From Planktothrix agardhii NIES-204 (GTDB taxonomy: Bacteria > Cyanobacteriota > Cyanobacteriia > Cyanobacteriales > Microcoleaceae): a DNA stretch of 64,000 nt. This document shows positions 4,968-41,045 of the stretch, piece after piece. The position numbers were made by a program, and so were the translations under genes. The stretch lies in the NCBI GenBank assembly GCA_003609755.1, contig AP017991.1, positions 1,319,501 through 1,383,500 of the forward strand, given 5' to 3'. The stretch's first letter is position 1. Each line of letters begins with the position of its first letter. A model generated the notes under the pieces. It made no database searches. It was not told the origin of the DNA and saw only the letters and a list, made by a program, of their open reading frames with translations.

Positions 4968-6041
4968 ATGGGGCAAAAGCTCAGACAATCAATGGAGCTA
5001 AAGCGAGGAGTGCCAATTGCTATAATAGCTTTGATAGCATTGGGAGTTATTGCTTATCTTGCTCACAGTTTTTCGGTATCCAAAGTATTGATACCGATTG
5101 TTTCCGTATTAGTGGCTTTTTTCAGTTCTCTAATGGCGTTAATTTATTATCAAAATCTGCAACAGTTAAAACAAAAAAATGCTTCCTTAGAGGCACTATT
5201 ACAAACTACGAAAGAACGGTTTTTACTAGAAAAACATGATCTAGGAAAACAACTGAAAACAACGGTTGAAAAATATAGCAATCTTGAATCTAAAAATAAA
5301 GTTTTGCAGGAGATGAATCATCGAAAAGATGATTTTCTGAGGCAAACATCCCATGAGTTAAGAACTCCGATGAATGGGATTATTGGTTCCTTACAACTCC
5401 TATTGGATGATTTATGTGATGATCGAGATGAAGAACTGGAGCTTTTAAAACAAGCCCATGATTCTTCCCTGCATCTATTAACGTTAATTAATCAGGTTTT
5501 AGACTTAGCTCGAATTGAAGAAGGTAGAATTTCTTTTGATATTAAAACTATTGATTTACAGGCGTGTTTAACGGCCGCTCTTTACCTACAATTTTCTAAT
5601 ATTCGTCAAAAAGGATTACGACTCTATAAACAGGATTATTCCCACCGAATTAATGTCAAAGCTGACCCCACAAAACTTAAGCAAATTTTCATTAATATTA
5701 TTGGGAATGCCATTAAATTTACAGACCGAGGCAGTATTTCAATTAGTACAGAAATTCGTCATGGTAATCATCCTCAAACACAAGAGAGTGAAGAAATAGC
5801 TGTGATTACGATTAAGGATACGGGAATTGGGATTTCACCTCACATTCAAGAAAAACTATTTCAACCCTTTGTGGTGGAAGATGAATCTCGACTCCACACC
5901 CTAGGAAGTACCGGATTGGGATTAGCAATTTCAAAAAATTTAGTCGAAATGATGGGAGGTAGAATTCAATTAGTTAGTCCAGGGAAGAATCAAGGAACCA
6001 TCATTGAAATCTTTTTACCCTTAAGTGATGGAGAAACCTAA
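4968..6041 (+). CDS. Membrane-bound sensor histidine kinase
   Basis: A two-component sensor kinase of 357 residues. Two hydrophobic segments (about 14-34 and 38-60) anchor it in a membrane with almost no extracytoplasmic domain, followed by a coiled coil (about 62-110). The HisKA domain has the phosphoacceptor box SHELRTPMNG near 128. The ATPase domain shows the N box (INIIGNAIKFT near 241), the G1 box DTGIGIS near 284, an F-box FQPFV and the G2 box GLGLAIS near 317, so the catalytic set looks complete. No response regulator is adjacent. Translation may start at the ATG at 4992 instead, since the first codons abut a repeat and neither start has a strong Shine-Dalgarno site. Confidence 0.9.
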   Translation: MGQKLRQSMELKRGVPIAIIALIALGVIAYLAHSFSVSKVLIPIVSVLVAFFSSLMALIYYQNLQQLKQKNASLEALLQTTKERFLLEKHDLGKQLKTTVEKYSNLESKNKVLQEMNHRKDDFLRQTSHELRTPMNGIIGSLQLLLDDLCDDRDEELELLKQAHDSSLHLLTLINQVLDLARIEEGRISFDIKTIDLQACLTAALYLQFSNIRQKGLRLYKQDYSHRINVKADPTKLKQIFINIIGNAIKFTDRGSISISTEIRHGNHPQTQESEEIAVITIKDTGIGISPHIQEKLFQPFVVEDESRLHTLGSTGLGLAISKNLVEMMGGRIQLVSPGKNQGTIIEIFLPLSDGET

Positions 6042-6069
6042 AATTCATATTCAAACGAATAAACTAACC

Positions 6070-6852
6070 TCAAGGAGTCGGGAAAAAGAGAAAGGAAGAT
6101 GTTAATAATTGTTGGGGTTGAATATTTTCTAAAAAGCCAATAATTTGACCTGTGCCTTGAACTTCAATTAAAGTTCCACCGCCAAGGGTACGTTCAATAC
6201 TAGGAAATACCCCTCGCACAGCTTCTGGGGGAATGGAGGTTAAACGCAACTGAGCAAAAGAAGGAACTCCACTAACAATAATTAGATCTTCTCCGGGGGT
6301 AAAATCCGTAATTATATCTGCATTAGTGGGAATAAAATTGGATGAAGAACCTGTATTTTCGGGAGGAAAAGCACGAACCGAAAAGTTGTCAATCCCAAAT
6401 CCTCCGGTTAACTGATTTATCCCTTTATCTCCGGCCAGATAATCATTTCCTCCTCCGCCCAAAAGGGTATCATTTCCCTGTCCTCCATAAACAGAATCAT
6501 TCCCATCTCCGCTATTAATATAATCCGCACCTAAATTTCCTTGAATAATATCATTGCCATTTAAACCGATTAAAGAATCGTTTCCTTTCCCTCCAAATAA
6601 ACTATCATCTCCAGCACCTCCCGATAGGGTATCCTGCTCCTCTAAACCATAAATGGCAAAGTTAAACGGGGCAAGAAACGGAGAGACTTGAATATAATCT
6701 GGGCCACTTGTGCCAATATATTGACCCTTTCTATTGACATCTTTTTGGGTAATCGTAATAATATTAACCCCCACTAGGGAAGTTGTAGTCCCTGTGGACA
6801 TTGGCACAGGTTGTGAAACAGATAGAGATGAAAAATCTGGTTGCATTGTCAT
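6070..6852 (-). CDS. RTX (hemolysin-type calcium-binding) repeat protein
   Basis: A 260-residue protein whose middle (about 70-150) is a run of calcium-binding nonapeptides of the GGxGxDxL type, such as GGAGDDSLF, GGKGNDSLI and GGQGNDTLL; these form a parallel beta-roll that folds on binding Ca2+. There is no N-terminal signal peptide, consistent with type I secretion through a C-terminal signal, but no secretion genes are nearby. The flanks show no enzyme domain I recognise. GGAGAG precedes the ATG by about 8 bases. It converges on the histidine-kinase gene. Confidence 0.85.
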   Translation of the reverse strand: MTMQPDFSSLSVSQPVPMSTGTTTSLVGVNIITITQKDVNRKGQYIGTSGPDYIQVSPFLAPFNFAIYGLEEQDTLSGGAGDDSLFGGKGNDSLIGLNGNDIIQGNLGADYINSGDGNDSVYGGQGNDTLLGGGGNDYLAGDKGINQLTGGFGIDNFSVRAFPPENTGSSSNFIPTNADIITDFTPGEDLIIVSGVPSFAQLRLTSIPPEAVRGVFPSIERTLGGGTLIEVQGTGQIIGFLENIQPQQLLTSSFLFFPTP

Positions 6853-7044
6853 AAATCGACTCTCCCTAAAACATTAGGGCAAAGGAAATCACTGGGTTTC
6901 AAAAGCAATAACATCTTACGGTGATTGATCCTACCCTGGATTGGGGGCGATCTCGACGAGAAAATGAAAATTTTTCATGATTGACCCTGAAATTCTGCCC
7001 ATAACAGTTAAGATTTAAGGAATAGTCGGGACTCGCTTTTGCCA

Positions 7045-8460
7045 ATGAATCCAGAATCCACGCTCAATCAGCTTAAATCATCCCTTGGGGATGGTCAAAT
7101 GCCTTCTAGTTACGGTGTTTACTTCAAAAATACCCTAGTTGCCCTGTGTCATGCCCTCGAAGATCACATTTTACAAAATAGTGATGCCACACCGGATCAA
7201 CAACCTCTAGTATTAGTCACATTTCAGGAGGGAAAATGGTATCTTCAAGAAGCCGAACGGTATTTTGATATGGTTCAATCTTGTCGCCATGTTGTGATTA
7301 GTGCCGTTGCGGATAGTGGATTTTTGACCCATCGCACCGGGCAATTAGAGAATGTTTCTTTAATTAATTTAGACCCTTCTGATAGTTTAGTGATGGAGTG
7401 GAATTTAATTATTTTAGCTCCGAGCTATACCACTATGGTATTGTGCCATGAATTGATGTTGGAAGAATATCCGGCTCATAGTCAACCCACTATTGATACT
7501 GAACGAAAGTTTTATGGATTATGGACATTTGATCAGAAATTAGTTCGGAAAGCTGCTGAAATTTTAATTGAGCGTTTTCGACCATATAATCCCGAATTAG
7601 CAGATAATTTATTGGCAAAACATCAGCAAATTGTAGCTACACCTTATCATCAAGTTCCTGATTTAACTAGCGTAGTTTCTCGGATTGTTAGTTATTTACA
7701 ATCTTCTCAACAAGAATTAATTACCGTTAACCGCCAAACCCGGGAATTATGGGAATTAGAAGGGCAAGCCAAACGAGTCAGCCGGAATATTAGTGGCAAT
7801 AAATTACAGGCGTTTTTAAGAATGGCACAACGGGTGGATGAACGAGATCACGATAACCCCTGTGCTTCCTTACAAGTAGCAGCTTTATCAGAAACCATTG
7901 GTCAAATTTTAGATTTGCCTACGGTGACTTTAAGGCGGTTACGGTTAGCGGGATTATTATATAGAATTGGGTTAGCATCAGCACCGGATGAGGTGTTTAA
8001 TCAAACCCCGGAAGAAATGGATGATGCCACGAAAAGGTTTTGGTCAGAACGGACATTAATTGGGGCTAGATTATTGGAATCTATGCCAGAATTATCGGAA
8101 GTTCGGGATGTCGTGTATTATTATTTAGAACATTGGGACGGCACGGGCAAACCCAATGGTTTAAAAGGAGAAGAAATTGATATTAAATCCCGAATTTTAG
8201 CCGTTGTAGCTTATTTTCAAGCCTTTATTCAACGCCGTGGTAAACGTCCGGCTTTGGGTTTAAGTGAAGCGCTAGAAAAATGTCAGGAGTTGAGTGGAAC
8301 TCGGTTTGATCCAGCCATAATTGAATCTTTAAAAACCGTTGTAAAATTAACGGAAATAGGGTTGATGCAATTGCCAACTCAACCCTGTCAATTACCGAAT
8401 ATTTGGTTAGAGGAGGAGTTAACTTCTAAATCTAAACATCAAAAAGAATCTACAATTTAA
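7045..8460 (+). CDS. DICT sensory domain protein with degenerate HD-GYP domain
   Basis: The N-terminal half resembles the DICT domain found with cyanobacterial signalling proteins. The C-terminal half aligns with HD-GYP cyclic-di-GMP phosphodiesterases: HWDGTGKPNGLKGEEI and SRILAVVAYFQAF correspond to the GYP-region motif. Metal-binding positions appear lost: the HD of HDIGK reads YR (LLYRIG), the HH before DG reads YY, and FDA reads FQA. It is therefore likely a binding or regulatory protein, not an active esterase. An in-frame TTG at 7039 is a weaker start than the ATG at 7045. The pentapeptide gene follows 22 bases after the stop. Confidence 0.75.
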   Translation: MNPESTLNQLKSSLGDGQMPSSYGVYFKNTLVALCHALEDHILQNSDATPDQQPLVLVTFQEGKWYLQEAERYFDMVQSCRHVVISAVADSGFLTHRTGQLENVSLINLDPSDSLVMEWNLIILAPSYTTMVLCHELMLEEYPAHSQPTIDTERKFYGLWTFDQKLVRKAAEILIERFRPYNPELADNLLAKHQQIVATPYHQVPDLTSVVSRIVSYLQSSQQELITVNRQTRELWELEGQAKRVSRNISGNKLQAFLRMAQRVDERDHDNPCASLQVAALSETIGQILDLPTVTLRRLRLAGLLYRIGLASAPDEVFNQTPEEMDDATKRFWSERTLIGARLLESMPELSEVRDVVYYYLEHWDGTGKPNGLKGEEIDIKSRILAVVAYFQAFIQRRGKRPALGLSEALEKCQELSGTRFDPAIIESLKTVVKLTEIGLMQLPTQPCQLPNIWLEEELTSKSKHQKESTI

Positions 8461-31880: not shown

Positions 31881-32327
31881 TTAACTTTCTTCAGTGGGCA
31901 AACTAGCTTTCCAAGATTTACAAATTTCTTCAGAACCTGCTTTGGCAATTTTTTTAACAACTAACGTAGCAATTAAAGTGGCAATCGCAGGAGCTAGTCC
32001 CAATCCCGATACAAGCAGAGGAGCCAACATTCCCGCCGCTTTTACATAATTCTGGTTAATGACTTCATCTAACACTTTCTCCGTTTCTGAATCTGAACCC
32101 AAAGGATTACACATCAGATCATAAAGTCCTGAATTGAGTCGTTTCAGTAACTGTTGACCTGCGGCTAATACTTCAGGACTGATCGGTGCTCTAGCCGCCG
32201 CATCAAGATCAATCGAATCAAGGGTTAGTCCTTTGGCTGTACCTTGAACTTGAAGACCTAATTGTGCTTCTAGGGATTCTTCATCCAGTTCTAACAACTG
32301 TGGGATTAATTCATTGTAATCTTGCAT
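31881..32327 (-). CDS. Small protein with hydrophobic C-terminal half, downstream of the caspase gene
   Basis: I do not recognise a family. The 148-residue protein has an acidic N-terminus (ELIPQLLELDEESLEAQL), a mid-region with an Ala-rich stretch (LDAAARAPISPEVLAAGQQLL) and a Cys, and a hydrophobic stretch near 97-128 (AAGMLAPLLVSGLGLAPA then IATLIATLVVKK), ending in a basic/acidic tail. The hydrophobic stretch could insert in a membrane or form an amphipathic helix bundle. TGGAG lies 8 bases before the ATG. It is the last of four same-strand genes with DUF29, CHAT-WD40 and caspase, but is separated from the caspase gene by 320 bases. Confidence 0.7.
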   Translation of the reverse strand: MQDYNELIPQLLELDEESLEAQLGLQVQGTAKGLTLDSIDLDAAARAPISPEVLAAGQQLLKRLNSGLYDLMCNPLGSDSETEKVLDEVINQNYVKAAGMLAPLLVSGLGLAPAIATLIATLVVKKIAKAGSEEICKSWKASLPTEES

Positions 32328-32647
32328 TGAAAAACTCCAGCTAAAGTCAGTTTATTATTTGGGGATTAACCGATTTAAAATAGGGTTTTATTCCTATCTA
32401 TTTAATGGAATTAACTTTAGCTAAATTTTACTAAAAAACTTGGTTAAAGTCAACTTTATTTAAACTTATTGCTAGGGAAAACGGTTCTCGCGTCCTTCTG
32501 GTGATAACGCCAACTTATAATCTAGTCCCAGGTTGTGCGATTAATAAAATCAGGGCAAATATAGCAGGGAACAGCTTAATTGGAAGGAAAAAAATTCACC
32601 ATCTAGGTTTCAGCATCCTCTCCCCTGTCTCCTGCTATCAAACAAAA
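32328..32647. other. Intergenic region between caspase gene and small protein gene
   Basis: The 320-base gap contains a MITE-like element (32561-32638) and an AT-rich segment toward the small gene that probably holds its promoter and leader. I found no coding sequence. Confidence 0.6.
32561..32638. repeat. Short inverted-repeat element (ATAGCAGG ends)
   Basis: ATAGCAGG (32561-32568) and CCTGCTAT (32631-32638) bound 78 bases. The left part ATATAGCAGGGAACA equals one end of the elements at 4798 and 41056, so it is a diverged or internally replaced member of that family. Confidence 0.65.
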
Positions 32648-34771
32648 CTAGCTTTTTTTTAACACAAATTCTACCTTTTCCGTTGTCCATTCCTCACTGG
32701 CATCTACCGCCATTGTAACCTTTCGCGTTGGGTTATTTTCATCCACAACAGCCGCTAATAATTTCTCCAAGGAATTAGTCGGTGGCTGAGTTCCAAATCC
32801 TCTTCGTTCTTGGTCTAAGGCGGGTAATTCTAAGAATTCAAAATTTGTTGTATTCACCGTTGCAAACACTTTCATCACATTTAGTGCTTCCTCATAATTT
32901 TGGGGTAATTCAAGTGTGAGGCTTTTTATTGAGTTTTTCTCTTGTCCAGGTTCTATCACCTCAGCAGCTACACCATCAAGATAGAATGTAGAAATACTTA
33001 AATCCGCATCTAGGATCAAGACAGTAATATTTAAGATTCGATTAGATTCATTCCGAACTTTTAGATAAATATTTTCTTCACCTTCTATTATTAGAGGAAT
33101 ATTGTTCCCCGTATTCAACACTTTTAATTGTTTTTTCTCTGATTTAACTAATTCAACCTTCAGTTTACCAATTAAGGGAGAAAAAGCATCCTCATTATCC
33201 AAATCTAAAACAGTATAATATCGAGCAACATGAATGAGGCGGTTAATTAACCTTTCCTCGGCTTCCGGTTCATTGACTTTTATCGGAAATAGAATATTTT
33301 TAACCCGTTGTTTGTTGGTATCTAAAATCCAATATTCCCCTTCTGAATTCAGGGAAACAAAATAATCTACATTCTCATCGGGTTCTTCTTCTGAACAGAA
33401 TTCTATCCAGCGATGACCTTCCACTCTTTCTTTAATTTGTTTAATTTTTGTTGGAATTGATAACAGATTAATACCGGGAAATTGCACTGATGCGTCAGGT
33501 AAAAGCAGCCGAACTTTGCGAATTTGTTTCACCCCTGGCCCTATATAATAAGCAGGAAAACCGATATCAATCATTCCTTCCTGTAATTGATTATTAATGG
33601 TTCTGAGGTTGTATAATTGCGTTATTTCTACCCAACAGTCAGAGGCTCCCAACTCGACAACTTTAGCACTTAAAATTCGCTGATCGGTATCCTTAAAATC
33701 CCTGGTTCTGAATTTAAAAATATCGAATTCTGCACCTTTTTTTATCCCACTGGCTTGACCCATTCGTAACTGGACTCGATTTTTGGCAACATCTACTTTC
33801 ATCACTGGAGCAGTCCGGCTCACCTTGACCGTTTGAGTGCCAAAAAAAGTACGTTCTGTCTCTCCAATTAACAATGGAGTTTGTTGTTTAAATTCATTAT
33901 TAACGAAATTAGAAATGCGATCATATAGCTCTTGGGCGGAGATTTCTGTACCGAATTGCCGTAGAGCTTTTAACAAGAAATACGTTAAAGCACCGTTCCG
34001 TTCTGTGCCTTCAAATACCTTTTCATAGGCTAATTCATGATCCCGACAAGCTGCAATTAAGCTGTAACCATTTGGGGTGGGAAATAAACTATCAGCAACC
34101 GTAATACTGCGACTATTAGTAACAATATTTCGTGAGATTTGGGCAAATTCATCAGGAGGAGCAACTAAACTATCTTTCGGTCGGTCTGTCATATCAATAA
34201 AATGGGAACCCCGCGCAGCAATATTTTCTTCCTCTTTGGTTTCGTCTCTCGTTGCGCCACCCGAATGACAACTATCAAAAACCACCGTTACGGCTAACTG
34301 TTTTTGCACCATATCATCGAGAAGTTTAGCTAATTCCAAATCTCGTAAATAGCGGGAATTGGGTTGACCAATATCGGTGGGAACTAACGCTTCATCGAAG
34401 GCTCCAAACCCCTTAATATCTTCATAAATTGTTTTAGCCCGTCCCCCGTGACCGGAATAGTGAATATAAATGAGATCTTGAGGTTGGGCTTTGGCGGTTA
34501 CTTCTTTAAATTTGTTAACAATATTTTCATAAGTCGGTAACAATTCCGGGGGTTCTTGGGGTTGTTCAGGATTATCGGAAGCTGTCGCCGTGAGTTTAAT
34601 AATTTGGTCAGGGGTGAGGTTAAAGGTATTTTTTAAATAGGTTTCGACGTGGTTAATATCTTGGACACAGCCCTTTAAGTTCTTGTAGCAGTTCCCTTCG
34701 GGTAAGCGATGGGGGAAATAGAAATTAATACCAATGAGTAGGGCGTGGAAGTTAGGGGTTGAATTAGTCAT
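32648..34771 (-). CDS. Caspase-family (C14) protease with C-terminal DUF4384-like region
   Basis: A 707-residue bacterial caspase homologue (orthocaspase/metacaspase group). The N-terminal p20-like domain (about 8-320) begins FHALLIGINFY and has the catalytic His in IHYSGHGGR near 106 and Cys in FDSCHSGG near 167; both catalytic residues are intact. A basic-residue specificity is typical of metacaspases but not shown here. Residues 330-420 form a linker beta-domain, and about 500-650 resembles DUF4384-type surface or sensor domains. No signal peptide is seen. It starts 53 bases after the CHAT-WD40 gene on the same strand. Confidence 0.9.
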   Translation of the reverse strand: MTNSTPNFHALLIGINFYFPHRLPEGNCYKNLKGCVQDINHVETYLKNTFNLTPDQIIKLTATASDNPEQPQEPPELLPTYENIVNKFKEVTAKAQPQDLIYIHYSGHGGRAKTIYEDIKGFGAFDEALVPTDIGQPNSRYLRDLELAKLLDDMVQKQLAVTVVFDSCHSGGATRDETKEEENIAARGSHFIDMTDRPKDSLVAPPDEFAQISRNIVTNSRSITVADSLFPTPNGYSLIAACRDHELAYEKVFEGTERNGALTYFLLKALRQFGTEISAQELYDRISNFVNNEFKQQTPLLIGETERTFFGTQTVKVSRTAPVMKVDVAKNRVQLRMGQASGIKKGAEFDIFKFRTRDFKDTDQRILSAKVVELGASDCWVEITQLYNLRTINNQLQEGMIDIGFPAYYIGPGVKQIRKVRLLLPDASVQFPGINLLSIPTKIKQIKERVEGHRWIEFCSEEEPDENVDYFVSLNSEGEYWILDTNKQRVKNILFPIKVNEPEAEERLINRLIHVARYYTVLDLDNEDAFSPLIGKLKVELVKSEKKQLKVLNTGNNIPLIIEGEENIYLKVRNESNRILNITVLILDADLSISTFYLDGVAAEVIEPGQEKNSIKSLTLELPQNYEEALNVMKVFATVNTTNFEFLELPALDQERRGFGTQPPTNSLEKLLAAVVDENNPTRKVTMAVDASEEWTTEKVEFVLKKS

Positions 34772-34824
34772 CTGTTTAAGGGGATAATGTTTGCAAAGGC
34801 TTGAGTTTATTGAGAAGGGGATAC

Positions 34825-37800
34825 CTATCTTTTAGATAGTTTACTACACAACTCCCATTCAATTTCTTGGGCTTCGACATCATCAGGATTAGGCTTGAGA
34901 TAATTGTCAATAAACTTGCATCCCTCCTGAACTAAATAATCAAAATCTAACCGCCACAGTTTCACCTTGTTGTCACCACTGACCGTCGCCAGCTTTTTGC
35001 CATCGGGGCTGAAACTCACCCCATAAACCCAGTCCGTATGCCCACTGAGGGTTTTTATTTCTTCCCCGGTGCTGGCATCCCACAGTTTCACCCTGCTGTC
35101 AGCACTCCCGGTCGCCAGCAGCTTACTATCGGGGCTGAAACTCACTGCAATAACCCAGTGGGTATGCCCACTGAGGGGTTTGATTTCTTCCCCGGTGCTG
35201 GCATCCCACAGTTTCACCGTGTTGTCAGCACTCCCGGTCGCCAGCAGCTTGCCATCGGGGCTGAAACTCACCGCATGAACCGAGTGGGTATGCCCACTGA
35301 GGGTTTTGATTTCTTTGCCGGTGCTGGCATCCCACAGTTTCACCGTGTTGTCATAACTCCCGGTCGCCAGCAGCTTGCCATCGGGGCTGAAACTCACCGC
35401 ATGAACCGAGTTGATATGCCCAGTCAGGGTTTTGATTTCTTTGCCAGTGCTGACATCCCACAGTTTCACAGTTGTGTCACCACTCCCGGTCGCCAGGCGG
35501 TTGCCATCGGCGCTGAAACTCACCGCATTAACCGAGTTGATATGCCCACTGAGGGTTTTGATTTCTTTGCCGGTGCTGACATTCCACAGTTTCACGGTTG
35601 TGTCACTACTCCCGGTCGCCAGCAACTTGCTATCGGGGCTGAAACTCACCGCATGAACCACGTGGGTATGCCCACTGAGGGGTTTGATTTCTTCCCCGGT
35701 GCTGGCATCCCACAGTTTCACCGTCTTGTCATAACTCCCGGTCGCCAGCAGCTTGCTATCGGGGCTGAAACTCACCGCTTTAACCCAGTAGGTATGCCCA
35801 CTGAGGGTTTTGATTTCTTTGCCGGTGCTAGCATCCCAGAGTTTCACCGTGTTGTCATAACTCCCGGTCGCCAGCGTTTTGCCATCGGGGCTGAAACTCA
35901 CCCCATAAACCCAGTCGGTATGCCCACTGAGGGTTTTGATTTCTTTGCCGGTGCTGGCATCCCAGAGTTTCACCGTGTTGTCAGCACTCCCGGTCGCCAG
36001 GAACTTGCCATCGGGGCTGAAACTCACTGCATTAACCGAGTGGGTATGCCCAGTGAGGGTTTTGATTTCTTTGCCAGTGCTGACATCCCAGAGTTTCACC
36101 GTGTTGTCAGCACTCCCGGTCGCCAGGAACTTGCCATCGGGGCTGAAACTCACCCCATAAACCAAGTGAGTATGCCCAGTCAGGGTTTTGATTTCTTTGC
36201 CAGTGCTGACATCCCACAGTTTCACCATGCTGTCAGCACTCCCGGTCGCCAGCAGCTTGCCATCGGGGCTGAAACTCACCCCATAAACCCCGTCGGTAGG
36301 CCTAGTCAGGGTTTTGATTTCTTTGCCAGTGCTGACATCCCACAGTTTCACCATGCTGTCAGCACTCCCGGTCGCCAGCAGCTTGCTATCGGGGCTGAAA
36401 CTCACCGCATGAACCGAGCTCCGCCCAGTCAGGGTTTTGATTTCTTCCCAAGTAGTGGTATTCCACAGTTTCACCGTCTTGTCTTCACTGCCAGTGGCCA
36501 GCAGCTTGCCATCGGGGCTGAAACTCACCGCTTTAACCGAGTTGATATGCCCACTGAGGGTTTTGATTTCTTTGCCAGTGCTGGCATCCCACAGTTTCAC
36601 TGTCCTGTCAGCACTCCCGGTCGCCAGGAACTTGCCATCGGGGCTGAAACTCACCCCATAAACCCCCTGTGCGTGTCCCCCCAAAGTGTTTGGTGCTGCT
36701 ACATTGGAAACGATATTCAATAATGCGAGTTCCACTTGGGTGCGGGTATCAGCATCAACCAGGGGTGTTTGTTGCATTTGCATCGCTGCTTTTAAACTGG
36801 CTTTGACTGCTTTTGACCCGTCTAAATTCAAAAGGGCATCGGAATATTGAGCCAAACCATTAATTTCTTTAATCCTCGCGTTCCATAAACCAAAACCTGC
36901 CACCCCAGCTAAACTTAAGGCAATCACGGAAAAGCCACTTAACCCCATTAAAGTTAACCGTCGCCTGCGTTCAATTTCTCGTTTTTCCCTATCTCTGTCT
37001 TTAATGCTAACTTGAATAAAATCCCGTTCCTCGGAGGTTATTTCATCGGCGCGTTTTTGTAACCAATCTTCCGCCACCGTCAAGAGTGTCCCCCACAATA
37101 ACCATTCAACATCCTGTTTATTATTTTTCCATTCTCGCAGTGCCAGCTTTAGCCGTTCTTGCCATGTCCGAAACTCACGGTTATCATTAATCCACTGTCG
37201 CAGCGTTTCCCATTCTCGAATTAACGCTTCATGGATGACTTCTACTGTATCTTCTGCAAAAGTGACCTCTCCCCAAACCCCTCTCCTGCGAGGCGAGGGG
37301 CTTTCATACTCCCCATTCCCAGGCAGGGAAGGGGGTCGGGGGGTTAGGTCTTTCTGATGTCGTCCCGTCACCACTAACCGGGCTTGATATCCTGCTAAAT
37401 AACTGACCAAATTCCAATTATCTTCCCCCACTTCTGCACGGGTCGCCACTCGTCGGGTATCTTCTGTTCCTTCCCCTGGACGCACTAACTGTACAAAAAT
37501 TCGCTGCGCCTGTTGTTTCTCCGGTTCACTCAATTTTTGATAAACTTGTTCGGCATGATTGGCGATCGCTTTTTTAACCCCCCCAATTTCTTGATATGCT
37601 GCATGAGTTAACGTTCGGTTTTTCTGTTTTTCCCATAACCGAGTTAAGGCAAATTCTAATAACGGTAAATTCCCCGGTTCTTGCCCCACATCATCAAGGA
37701 TTCTTTGGGTTAATTGTTCTTCTAATTCTACTTCTAATTTTTGGGCGGGGAGTTCAATGGCTTGTTGTAATTCCTCCCGTTTCATCGAACTTAGGAATTG

Positions 37801-39015
37801 TGGTGTATGGGCTTGTAACGCATCCCGAAACGGACGATAGGACAGGACATAATTCAGAAAATCCGCCCGTAAGGTAAAAACTAATCTAACATTTTCTTGA
37901 GCAATAGCCGCTAGTAATTCATCAGCAAAGCGTTCCTGTTCTTCCTTCACCGGACACAGGGTATATAGTTCCTCTAATTGGTCTGCAACTAATAATAACC
38001 GTTTCCCAGGATTGCGTTCTAAAATTCGAGAAATCACCTGTTGTACTGTGATTCTCCCTTGTTGAAAATCACTGGCGAGTCCCACAGATTCCCGCAAGAA
38101 TTGAGTTTCTCCCGCTTCCGGTTCCAGTTGTCGCACTAAGGCAGAAGCTAAAGGTAAAAACGGTTCTTTCCCTGGACGGAAAACCTCTATTAACCAGTTC
38201 CCCTGTTGTCGCAATTTGGGAATTAAACCTGCAAATACTACCGAGGATTTCCCACTACCACTCGGCCCAATAATTCCTACTAATGGTTGGTTTTGCGTAA
38301 CTTCTACTAATTTATTAATAAAGTTTTCTTGCCCAAAAAAGAAGTCGGCATCTTCTTCTCCAAAAGCCGCTAATCCTTGATACGGGTTCGGAGGAATAAC
38401 GTCGTCAAAAACATGAATATCTATATTAATCAGAGTCGGAATTAAGGGTTTTTTCTTAAAAACCGGAGTTTCCTGTTCTAAAAAACTCATCATCTGCGAA
38501 CAGCCTAACTCGTAGGCTTCTTCGACTTCATATCCGGCGGCTAGAGCATCATAAAAAGCAACGGAAAAAGCAACGGCGGCTTTATCCCCCACCGCTTTCT
38601 TCATTCCTAATACATAATCAACATATTGACTAATTGCCTCGGCTTGTACTTCTGAATAACAAGCATTTAAAATCACACATTCAACACTTTTTTTGGCAAA
38701 TAATTTAAACATACTGGCGAGGGTTTTTGTCTCCAGTAAGACCATTTTTCCCGTATCATCTTCGAGGACAATTCCATCCTGTCCTGCCCCATGTCCGCAG
38801 AAATGAACAATTTGCGGTTGATAATCTAATATTGCCCGATAAAAATCACGAGAACGGACTGCTAATTTCTGTTCTAATTTATACTGATGTCGTTGATTTG
38901 CCCGTCGTAATCCTTCATCAATTTCCCGAATTTCTTCTTCTAATCGCAACCGAGACGTATTAGTTGGGTTAGCAGCTAGAATCAGAATTGTCTTAACAGC
39001 ATCATTGTTATTCAT
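34825..39015 (-). CDS. CHAT protease - nSTAND ATPase - WD40 protein (14 repeats)
   Basis: A 1396-residue signalling protein. Residues 1-200 are a CHAT caspase-like protease domain with His in FCGHG near 74 and Cys in LNACYS near 117. From about 210 an nSTAND1-type NTPase begins NPYQGLAAFGEEDADFFFGQE with Walker A GPSGSGKSS near 248. About 556-584 is an in-frame repeat insertion. A transmembrane helix lies near 685-707, then 14 WD40 repeats of about 42 residues (about 770-1355), enough for two seven-bladed propellers. The repeats are almost identical. Translation is taken from the ATG at 39015. It heads a probable operon with the caspase gene. Confidence 0.93.
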   Translation of the reverse strand: MNNNDAVKTILILAANPTNTSRLRLEEEIREIDEGLRRANQRHQYKLEQKLAVRSRDFYRAILDYQPQIVHFCGHGAGQDGIVLEDDTGKMVLLETKTLASMFKLFAKKSVECVILNACYSEVQAEAISQYVDYVLGMKKAVGDKAAVAFSVAFYDALAAGYEVEEAYELGCSQMMSFLEQETPVFKKKPLIPTLINIDIHVFDDVIPPNPYQGLAAFGEEDADFFFGQENFINKLVEVTQNQPLVGIIGPSGSGKSSVVFAGLIPKLRQQGNWLIEVFRPGKEPFLPLASALVRQLEPEAGETQFLRESVGLASDFQQGRITVQQVISRILERNPGKRLLLVADQLEELYTLCPVKEEQERFADELLAAIAQENVRLVFTLRADFLNYVLSYRPFRDALQAHTPQFLSSMKREELQQAIELPAQKLEVELEEQLTQRILDDVGQEPGNLPLLEFALTRLWEKQKNRTLTHAAYQEIGGVKKAIANHAEQVYQKLSEPEKQQAQRIFVQLVRPGEGTEDTRRVATRAEVGEDNWNLVSYLAGYQARLVVTGRHQKDLTPRPPSLPGNGEYESPSPRRRGVWGEVTFAEDTVEVIHEALIREWETLRQWINDNREFRTWQERLKLALREWKNNKQDVEWLLWGTLLTVAEDWLQKRADEITSEERDFIQVSIKDRDREKREIERRRRLTLMGLSGFSVIALSLAGVAGFGLWNARIKEINGLAQYSDALLNLDGSKAVKASLKAAMQMQQTPLVDADTRTQVELALLNIVSNVAAPNTLGGHAQGVYGVSFSPDGKFLATGSADRTVKLWDASTGKEIKTLSGHINSVKAVSFSPDGKLLATGSEDKTVKLWNTTTWEEIKTLTGRSSVHAVSFSPDSKLLATGSADSMVKLWDVSTGKEIKTLTRPTDGVYGVSFSPDGKLLATGSADSMVKLWDVSTGKEIKTLTGHTHLVYGVSFSPDGKFLATGSADNTVKLWDVSTGKEIKTLTGHTHSVNAVSFSPDGKFLATGSADNTVKLWDASTGKEIKTLSGHTDWVYGVSFSPDGKTLATGSYDNTVKLWDASTGKEIKTLSGHTYWVKAVSFSPDSKLLATGSYDKTVKLWDASTGEEIKPLSGHTHVVHAVSFSPDSKLLATGSSDTTVKLWNVSTGKEIKTLSGHINSVNAVSFSADGNRLATGSGDTTVKLWDVSTGKEIKTLTGHINSVHAVSFSPDGKLLATGSYDNTVKLWDASTGKEIKTLSGHTHSVHAVSFSPDGKLLATGSADNTVKLWDASTGEEIKPLSGHTHWVIAVSFSPDSKLLATGSADSRVKLWDASTGEEIKTLSGHTDWVYGVSFSPDGKKLATVSGDNKVKLWRLDFDYLVQEGCKFIDNYLKPNPDDVEAQEIEWELCSKLSKR
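34954..36684 (-). repeat. Near-identical 126-bp WD40 repeat array
   Basis: Fourteen consecutive units of about 126 bases encode blades such as VSFSPDGKLLATGS. The framework codons are almost unchanged, while codons after the leading His (THS, INS, TDW, TYW, THL, THV, THW) and around GS-x-D-x (AD, ED, YD, SD, GD) vary. The regularity opens a long frame on the opposite strand. Confidence 0.93.
37264..37350 (-). repeat. In-frame GC-rich palindromic insertion inside the CHAT-WD40 gene
   Basis: An 87-base (29-codon) segment starts GACCT and ends AGGTC (inverted), contains CCCCTCTCC/GGAGAGGGG type arms, and codes for a Pro/Arg-rich peptide (TPRPPSLPGNGEYESP). It resembles intergenic repeats of filamentous cyanobacteria and interrupts otherwise ordinary nSTAND sequence without breaking the frame. 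Confidence 0.75.
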
Positions 39016-39217
39016 CAATTAATAAAAATTATTTATGTCCATTTTTTATATCTGGCTAGTAACGGTTTAACACATCAATTAATGATTGTCAATGTATTTT
39101 TTAATTCAGATCACAATCAGGATAGGGAATAAACTAAACTTTTGGCTAGGTGCAAAATAAAACAAGAGATGCTATAGATAATTTTTTATAATTCTAAAAT
39201 TAAGAGGGTGCGATCGC

Positions 39218-39688
39218 TTAACTTTCAGGCAAAAAATCACGATCAAGTACCTGTTCAGAAGTCAAGGGACAAGTTAACGAAAAAACATCTAATGATAAAC
39301 CCGTTTCCACAGATGCTAATATTCTAGCATCTTGATAGGTTTCATCAAAAATTTGTTCAAAATATCCCTTTAAACTAGGACTGGCTTTCAACTCTTTACT
39401 AATTCTAATTCGATGTTCTATTATCGTAGACAGCCAACTATTAGAACGGCGTTCAGGTTGATATTGATATTTGAGTAAGTGCATTAACAAAACTCGTAAA
39501 TTACTCTCGATCGCTCGTTTATCACTCCTCCCCATACTCTCTAATTCTTCAATTAAATTATCTCGATCCAGTTCTAAAAAATTTTCTGTCCTTAATAAAT
39601 TAACTGTTTTTTCAAGCCATAAATAAAAATCTTGATCATACAAACTAGACAGTGGAAGTGTTTCTGATGGGGGTTGAAAGATTGTCAT
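39218..39688 (-). CDS. DUF29 family protein
   Basis: A 156-residue protein of the DUF29 family, common in cyanobacteria and of unknown function. The family pattern is visible: YDQDFYLWLEKT near 17, LDRDNLIEELESMG near 40, LRVLLMHLLKYQYQPERRS near 65, and SPSLKGYFEQIFDETYQDAR (in two halves) near 103. It is highly charged with no membrane segment. It ends 202 bases upstream of the CHAT-WD40 gene on the same strand, so it might belong to that cluster or be a chance neighbour. Confidence 0.88.
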   Translation of the reverse strand: MTIFQPPSETLPLSSLYDQDFYLWLEKTVNLLRTENFLELDRDNLIEELESMGRSDKRAIESNLRVLLMHLLKYQYQPERRSNSWLSTIIEHRIRISKELKASPSLKGYFEQIFDETYQDARILASVETGLSLDVFSLTCPLTSEQVLDRDFLPES

Positions 39689-39857: not shown

Positions 39858-41045
39858 ATGCCTCAAACCGCCTCAACCCAGAATCTAATATCCACTTCGG
39901 TTGTGAGTTTAAATATTGCCCCAGCCCAAGTTTTACGCGGCAATAACGCCTTAACACAAGCAGGAGAGGCGATCGCAGGCTTTGGTCAACGGCCCTTAAT
40001 CATTGGTGGCGATCGCTCCTTACCCCTGACTGTTCAAGCCCTACAACCCATTTTAGAACGTCATCAACTCCAATATTCTCAAATCTACTATGGGGCTGAC
40101 TGTAGCGAAACCAGCTTAACCGCCCTACGTCAAGCCGTTAGCAACCATAAGGCCGATTTTATCATCGGGACGGGGGGCGGAAAAGCCCTGGATGCGGCCA
40201 AACTGATCGCCCATCAATGTCATCTCCCGATCGTTACCATTCCCACTTCTGGGGCGACCTGCGCCGCTTGGACAGCCCTCTCTAACGTTTATTCCGAGGA
40301 TGGGGCTTTTTTATATGATGTTAGTTTAGCCCGGTGTCCTGATTTATTGATTTTGGACTATAACTTAATTCAAACCGCCCCCCAACGGATGTTAGTGGCG
40401 GGTATTGGGGATGCGATCGCTAAATGGTATGAAGCCAGTGTCAGTAGTGGACATTCCGATCAAACCTTCATGATTGCTGCGGTACAACAGGCGCGAGTCT
40501 TGCGAGATATATTATTACAAAAATCCTTAACCGCCTTACAAGACAACGGTGGCGAAACTTGGCGGGAAGTTGTCGATGCGACGGTATTACTAGCCGGAGT
40601 GATTGGCGGTATTGGTGGCGCCCAATGTCGCACCGTTGCGGCCCATGCGGTTCATAATGGTTTAACCCATGTTGCGGCTAGTCACGGGACTTTACACGGG
40701 GAAAAAGTCGCCTTTGGAATTTTAGTACAACTGCGTTTAGAAGAAATGGTACAGGGCAATCAACTCGCGGCCACTGCTAGACAACAATTATTAAAGTTTT
40801 ACACCGATTTAGGTTTACCCCAAACCCTGAATGATTTGGGAATGGGTAAAATCACCTTAGCCGAACTGCGACAAGCCGCCGACGTTGCTTGTAATGAACG
40901 TTCTGATATTCACCGTTTACCGTTTAAAGTAGTTCCAGAACAGTTAATGGCGGCAATGGTATCAACTACAGCCCCAGGGGAATTACGAATTACGAATTAT
41001 GAATTACGAGTGGGGAAGACCAAAGACTCTTACCCAGAATCCTAG
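39858..41045 (+). CDS. GldA-like iron-containing alcohol dehydrogenase
   Basis: A 395-residue NAD-dependent dehydrogenase of the iron-containing/glycerol dehydrogenase family. The NAD-binding part has GTGGGKALDAAK near 104 and TIPTSGATCAAWT; metal ligands are the Asp in GIGDAIAKW near 186 and His residues in AVHNGLTH and TLHGEKV. The substrate is uncertain (glycerol, a polyol phosphate or an aldehyde). The last about 22 residues (RITNYELRV and following) are encoded by an AATTACG repeat that replaced the native end. A HIP1-rich coding sequence is evident. Confidence 0.88.
   Translation: MPQTASTQNLISTSVVSLNIAPAQVLRGNNALTQAGEAIAGFGQRPLIIGGDRSLPLTVQALQPILERHQLQYSQIYYGADCSETSLTALRQAVSNHKADFIIGTGGGKALDAAKLIAHQCHLPIVTIPTSGATCAAWTALSNVYSEDGAFLYDVSLARCPDLLILDYNLIQTAPQRMLVAGIGDAIAKWYEASVSSGHSDQTFMIAAVQQARVLRDILLQKSLTALQDNGGETWREVVDATVLLAGVIGGIGGAQCRTVAAHAVHNGLTHVAASHGTLHGEKVAFGILVQLRLEEMVQGNQLAATARQQLLKFYTDLGLPQTLNDLGMGKITLAELRQAADVACNERSDIHRLPFKVVPEQLMAAMVSTTAPGELRITNYELRVGKTKDSYPES
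40982..41011. repeat. AATTACG-type STRR inside the dehydrogenase 3' end
   Basis: About four copies of AATTACG/AATTATG lie in the last codons of the dehydrogenase gene and encode its odd C-terminal tail. Two copies of the same unit lie at 47705-47722, before ureF. Confidence 0.75.

Follow-up and report, generated by a model that had tools for sequence, protein, structure and literature searches.

Caspase homologues of cyanobacteria have long been linked with programmed cell death, and a locus of Planktothrix agardhii NIES-204 raises the question of what such an enzyme might act on. The locus lies in a stretch of 64,000 nucleotides, here called the window (GenBank assembly GCA_003609755.1, contig AP017991.1, positions 1,319,501 to 1,383,500). 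Between window positions 31881 and 39688 it has four open reading frames (ORFs), all on the minus strand: a DUF29 gene, a gene for a CHAT protease-STAND ATPase-WD40 protein, a caspase gene, and a gene for a 148-residue protein which, together with its relatives, we call SMALL. A preliminary description made from the sequence alone had taken the four as one set, in which the WD40 protein senses a trigger, the ATPase oligomerizes, CHAT activates the caspase, and SMALL could be the membrane-acting substrate. This order is sensible as a reading, but its outcome seems incomplete: because a larger cassette found in relatives includes a lysozyme and an endopeptidase, lysis of the wall, beyond membrane damage alone, is the likely result. 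The window cluster appears to be a reduced form of that cassette, without its hydrolases, and the association with wall-cutting enzymes looks like a built-in cell-bursting program of filamentous cyanobacteria.

A larger cassette in related genomes

Loci are given L-numbers and genomes G-numbers. The window genome (G000) has a SMALL paralogue (C1:14083-14502, 84%) in a second locus, L003 (G000:C1:14083-23347), where genes for a lysozyme, a VanY-like endopeptidase, a caspase, a caspase-nSTAND-WD40 protein, and SMALL stand in a row on one strand. The two hydrolases are a Phage_lysozyme and a VanY protein, each with a PG_binding_1 domain. Full sets, with variations, were found at L063, L017, L022, L071, and L073, and CHAT-type sets that combine SMALL with VanY and lysozyme at L065, L070, and L072; the CHAT part of the window protein is 82% alike in L065 and 81% in L070. 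Lysozyme, VanY, and caspase also occur with no SMALL nearby at L057, L058, and L059, the last two in genomes (G004 and G152) that carry SMALL on a contig other than the lysozyme's, and L056 has the lysozyme without the remaining cassette genes. A C39 peptidase with PG_binding_1 (PF13529, E value of 1.5e-19) takes the place of VanY in Lyngbya (L077). At the Okeania locus L082, a C39 peptidase (E value of 6.4e-10) accompanies a stand-alone lysozyme. Because C39 replaces VanY in these genera, a glycan-cutting and a peptide-cutting enzyme appear to be kept together, and such non-homologous swaps point to function.

We surveyed 195 genomes of the order, counting as lysozyme the full-length protein with its N-terminal domain. 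SMALL and lysozyme were each found in 10 genomes and both in 8 (Fisher test, 4.4e-11, with relatedness ignored), and SMALL alone in G126 and G178. In a sample of the phylum, SMALL was found in 6 of 386 genomes, one match being marginal (E value of 0.008). Among 12 named genomes with SMALL that were checked are 6 with a full-length lysozyme, one of these with an internal stop codon, and 2 with a short Okeania type.

Genes within 10 kb were counted at 28 SMALL loci, many of them cut by contig ends. Four genomes contribute two loci each (the window and L003, L072 and L024, L067 and L078, and L068 and L070); the count omits L015, L016, L018, L019, L023, and L061, which are second copies of named loci, and L056 to L060, which were fetched by way of the lysozyme. 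At least one cassette gene was present at 23 of the 28, with STAND proteins at 20, any caspase at 17, lysozyme at 12, VanY at 10, and C39 at 3. Where at least 9 kb was available on both sides (n = 11), a caspase accompanied SMALL every time and a lysozyme in seven cases. The co-occurrence of SMALL and caspase elsewhere, which the preliminary description had named as its test, is thus upheld.

Some loci show individual variations. At L057, an LCAT-family protein (positions 5303-6751; PF02450, E value of 3.4e-15) follows the caspases in a genome that gave no SMALL match; in this single case it would be a different route of membrane attack. Argonema antarcticum has a second SMALL broken into two ORF pieces (L072:18798-19214) and, elsewhere, a shortened SMALL with a VanY remnant and a 207-amino-acid caspase piece (L024:9145-10630). 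In Microcoleus vaginatus, a 638-amino-acid protein with a trypsin-like domain is encoded amid CHAT genes near SMALL (L069:12752-14668).

Predicted proteins of the cassette

SMALL (31881..32327, minus strand) is the candidate membrane-disrupting effector. Searches of Pfam and NCBIfam gave no match, and thus none to a known housekeeping family, which would have told against the earlier proposal. The family shares an acidic helical N-terminal segment (residues 1-28), which a linker that differs in length joins to a conserved C-terminal portion; in the window protein, this linker leads into a further helical part. The hydrophobic C-terminal half noticed earlier is borne out by a single hydrophobic hairpin at about residues 94-129, conserved across aligned members, with a best 19-residue hydropathy of 2.07 in the window protein and 1.88 to 2.36 among full-length members, in all of which the flat biological-scale sum is slightly positive. 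AlphaFold predicted an all-helical protein with helices at 94-109 and 113-129 (pTM of 0.72). The SMALL of Okeania (L081/L082:10001-10702) has an Arg-rich linker insertion of about 75 residues.

The caspase gene (32648..34771, minus strand) encodes 707 amino acids with a Peptidase_C14 domain (PF00656, E value of 2.5e-22; PADLOC caspase, 1.2e-41) and a C-terminal region of about 390 amino acids beyond the protease part. The His-Cys dyad reported earlier is intact: His108 and Cys168 are kept in all of the family members aligned (15 of 15), as are the acids D38 and D166, which motif spacing and alignment with yeast Mca1 suggest are equivalent to D95 and D211 of TbMC2 and which may form an acidic pocket that accepts Arg or Lys at P1. 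With an E value of 3e-14 to the yeast metacaspase and, by sequence, a p20 fold with the dyad, the protein is an orthocaspase/metacaspase, and it is 66% identical to the Argonema caspase (L019/L072). The window genome (5.08 Mb) has eight caspase domains, three of them within its two SMALL loci.

The 1,397-amino-acid product of the next gene (34825..39018, minus strand, with a TTG start as listed) is the candidate sensor and initiator protease. Its CHAT part (PADLOC chat, 4.8e-14) has both the His and the Cys of a CHAT protease in the motifs VHFCGHG and LNACYS; Pfam CHAT was not among the 25 matches listed for the protein. An nSTAND1 domain (E value of 1.7e-118) and WD40 matches in 14 stretches follow. 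The WD40 repeats are many and nearly identical, which suggests that repeats of the sensor recently multiplied or were exchanged; a plus-strand ORF of 561 amino acids opposite them (35038-36723) looks like a shadow of this repeat sequence and was rejected as a gene. In Planktothrix rubescens PCC7821 (G126), the CHAT-STAND protein (L064:4957-7416) has 819 amino acids with only a short WD40 match and looks shortened, and a 547-amino-acid ORF lies between it and DUF29.

Both hydrolases resemble phage endolysins held in the cytoplasm. Glu82, Asp101, and Thr107 of the lysozyme (L003 numbering), which we take to be the GH24 catalytic residues, are invariant among 10 aligned sequences, and so are His140, Asp147, Asp169, and His172 of VanY among 9. 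By hydropathy, neither protein has a signal-peptide-like stretch at its N terminus (the L017 sequence is truncated there by the end of the locus). Among solved structures, those most closely related to the lysozyme are lysozymes and endolysins, and 2,611 phage records match it, just one across at least 80% of its length. In its model, a folded N-terminal domain is joined by a linker to the catalytic domain.

Orthocaspases and metacaspases cleave after Arg or Lys (PMC5756287 and PMC8283722, in excerpt), and the linkers of SMALL, lysozyme, and VanY have such a residue before a small one, which is compatible with orthocaspase cleavage. An [RK][AGST] pair occupies the column of SMALL R46-A47 (codons at 32187..32192, minus strand) in 24 of 27 family members; this candidate cut site, suggested by column conservation, falls in a low-confidence linker of the AlphaFold model. 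In L076 and L079, Arg-Gly or Arg-Ser comes two positions later; L083 lacks a pair at either place. The pair is present at VanY residue 33 in 12 of 12 sequences. Of 14 lysozymes, 13 have Arg at the linker column and 11 have a small residue after it; the one without Arg is the solitary L056. In the L063 lysozyme, Arg63 lies within residues 60-65, one of two stretches with a pLDDT under 50. These counts leave aside the two fragments of the broken second SMALL of L072, the VanY remnant of L024, and two short Okeania lysozymes. Because the pattern alone is common, we regard the sites as a prediction to test and not as proof.

Genomic site of the window cluster

An FtsH-FtsH pair on one side and the gene at 39858-41045 on the other flank the site. 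The same flanks enclose the CHAT-type set in the window and G126 and the full lysis cassette in G140, and SMALL is the part common to all three; we conclude that the module beside SMALL has been exchanged at one place. In a further Planktothrix genome, G075, the FtsH-to-dehydrogenase site (L113:5320-7357) holds two ORFs of 476 and 211 amino acids without a match to the window genes, and this position apparently accommodates variable genes.

Of the four-gene set proposed earlier, SMALL, the caspase, and the CHAT-nSTAND-WD40 gene stand. The DUF29 gene (39218..39688, minus strand; 156 amino acids; Pfam DUF29, E value of 3.7e-54) was left out, because the window genome has 25 DUF29 matches and DUF29 accompanies SMALL at just two (L064 and L072) of 21 named loci; we judge it a bystander, a neighbor by chance. 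SMALL starts 320 bp behind the caspase stop codon (gap at 32328..32647, minus strand), and a promoter-like TTGACT-17-TAAAAT sequence lies in between (32453-32425). Such patterns, this one included, were not more common than chance in a scan (15 matches against 15.3 in shuffled sequence).

Comparison with known systems

We found no open-license text that describes caspases together with a lysozyme-endopeptidase pair and SMALL. Parts of the cassette resemble known systems. Like the CRISPR-associated CHAT proteases, as far as described in excerpts on Csx29 (Craspase) and SAVED-CHAT, the window CHAT domain may be a switched protease, but it is fused to nSTAND1-WD40. SAVED-CHAT acts in caspase cascades. 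Phage holin-endolysin cassettes share with ours a signal-less GH24 lysozyme and a hydrophobic small protein; ours differs in the added N-terminal domain, PG_binding_1, and the adjoining protease genes, and a search of 50,697 phage records at an E value of 0.1 gave no match to SMALL. In that comparison, the invariant GH24 residues belong to the relatives, the window itself is without a hydrolase, and the membrane role of SMALL is predicted.

In gasdermin systems, a protease, often with a CARD or an NLR-like ATPase, cuts a gasdermin, whose pore-forming domain is largely beta. The bacterial systems resemble the present one in having a protease-activated membrane effector that adjoins its protease and causes cell death (PMC13236601, in excerpt), but SMALL is small, is modeled as all-helical, and had no Pfam match, and here a caspase and wall hydrolases take part. 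With no gasdermin match in Pfam or PADLOC, SMALL was rejected as a gasdermin. LypABC of Caulobacter, in which lysis is under CARD-NLR-like control, likewise needs an NLR-like ATPase and peptidase domains for host cell lysis; its LypA peptidase is trypsin-like, however, and the system serves the release of a gene transfer agent in a genome from which the same excerpt reports no canonical holin-endolysin homologues (PMC13236601). Proteases and STAND proteins are also tied to peptidoglycan attack in the NucA/trypsin systems, whose effectors, linked through EAD1, include lysozymes and papain-like peptidases that act on peptidoglycan (Kaur et al. 2020, PMC7159879). Those systems are mostly alphaproteobacterial, coupled by EAD1, and centered on the NucA nuclease and trypsin instead of caspases, and the excerpted text makes no mention of SMALL.

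In the PADLOC candidate PDC-M35, the gene that immediately follows a protease gene encodes a small protein with a hairpin of hydrophobic residues, but the protease there is trypsin-like, whereas here it is a caspase or CHAT. SMALL matches PDC-M35B weakly (E value of 1.3e-4 for the window protein and, at best, 2.8e-6 for L022); a profile comparison, with only four M35B sequences, gave an hhalign probability of 0.3%, which leaves homology unsupported. M35A was not found among the scanned window neighbors of SMALL (caspase, CHAT-STAND-WD40, and DUF29). Microcoleus L103, where M35A is trypsin-like, encodes an M35B (6465-7303) with a C-terminal Phd/YefM-like stretch (PF02604, E value of 1.6e-5, below the cutoff), and the small ORF adjoining it looks by eye like a RelE-type toxin, so that trypsin, small protein, and toxin-antitoxin pair stand together.

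A candidate self-lysis program

On balance, we favor the reading that the sensor, its CHAT or caspase initiator, the caspase, SMALL, and the hydrolases form one self-lysis program, the window set being a reduced one that may rely on the second locus. What the sequences show is which genes are present, their repeated association, the intact catalytic residues, the hairpin, and hydrolases without a signal-peptide-like N terminus; the steps that follow are inferred from these. A sensor of the STAND-WD40 kind, bearing a caspase or CHAT domain at its N terminus, would be triggered, perhaps by infection, its ATPase would oligomerize, and its protease domain would activate the adjoining orthocaspase. 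The caspase could then cut after Arg or Lys in the linkers of SMALL, the GH24 lysozyme, and the VanY-like endopeptidase. Freed SMALL would insert its hairpin and permeabilize the inner membrane in a holin-like manner, and the two signal-less hydrolases would reach and cut the wall, so that the cell lyses, to a presumed benefit. In NIES-204, the window would provide the CHAT sensor, a caspase, and SMALL, and the second locus, acting in trans, another SMALL, another caspase, the caspase-STAND-WD40 protein, and both hydrolases.

Several observations weigh against this reading. Nothing points to a trigger, and the hydrolases are missing from the loci of the window and P. rubescens (L064), whose genome gave no lysozyme match at 1e-10. 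Neither a full-length nor an Okeania-type lysozyme was found in 4 of the 12 named SMALL genomes; conversely, 2 of the 10 genomes with the full-length lysozyme (G163 and G022) gave no SMALL match, and 5 of the 28 SMALL loci (L021, L076, L079, L080, and L083) have no cassette gene near. The Fisher test takes no account of relatedness, and the window caspase shares only 34% identity with the caspases of L003 and L063. As for the cut sites, the [RK][AGST] pattern alone is no rarity (among 299 VanY columns, 4 attain 90%), the SMALL K96-A97 column scores above R46-A47 (25 against 24 of 27), and the Okeania lysozymes have neither the N-terminal domain nor the linker site. The SMALL model is middling (pLDDT of 72.6, with five models spanning 39.2 to 72.6), and structure comparison gave it no significant fold match.

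The differences at the window locus could mean that it is a separate two-protease system whose link to lysis is historical, with SMALL left after a caspase/CHAT module replaced the lysis module. The exchange between shared flanks, the low identity of the caspase, and the shortened WD40 part and missing lysozyme match of G126 would all suit this. We nevertheless think it rather unlikely, given that the 66%-identical Argonema caspase occurs near SMALL, CHAT, VanY, and lysozyme and that the closely similar CHAT proteins of L065 and L070 stand with SMALL and both hydrolases. SMALL might instead work in the cytoplasm as an adaptor or inhibitor that partners the hydrolases or the caspase much as an immunity protein would, with the hairpin as the core of a soluble helical bundle. 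Its all-helical model, the moderate hydropathy with a slightly positive biological-scale sum, and the solitary SMALL genes fit such a role, which is unlikely all the same: the hairpin is conserved, the signal-less hydrolases need some way out, and in PDC-M35 a trypsin occurs together with a small protein that has a hydrophobic tail, unsupported as the homology of that protein to SMALL is.

A further alternative concerns purpose, namely that the cassette has its role in development or in the fragmentation of trichomes (through necridia and the release of hormogonia) and not in antiviral defense. Wall hydrolases suit such a task, and most named SMALL hosts belong to genera that we take to be filamentous. 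Before hormogonia are released, dead cells known as necridia appear (PMC9415839, in excerpt). A core developmental function should, however, be steadier than SMALL, whose distribution is very patchy (10 of the 195 genomes carry it); of the four Planktothrix genomes, one has the site occupied by unrelated ORFs. We hold this reading to be quite improbable.

Within the self-lysis program that we favor, a bolder and more tentative version is that these orthocaspases have native death substrates, an apoptosome-like STAND-WD40 sensor leading the caspase to unlock a holin-like pore former and paired zymogen endolysins. Excerpts of three publications give artificial peptide substrates and basic specificity for cyanobacterial caspase homologues and name no native death substrate (PMC5756287, PMC8283722, and PMC9415839). 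The question is directly testable, because the cassette offers three candidates, each with a predicted cut site. If true, this would be a bacterial program that unites an apoptosis-type protease cascade with a phage-type lysis machine. The self-lysis program itself, if real, would join protease-triggered membrane killing with endolysin-type wall lysis, which have so far been separate ideas. Planktothrix is a bloom former, and we speculate that such a lysis program could bear on bloom collapse.

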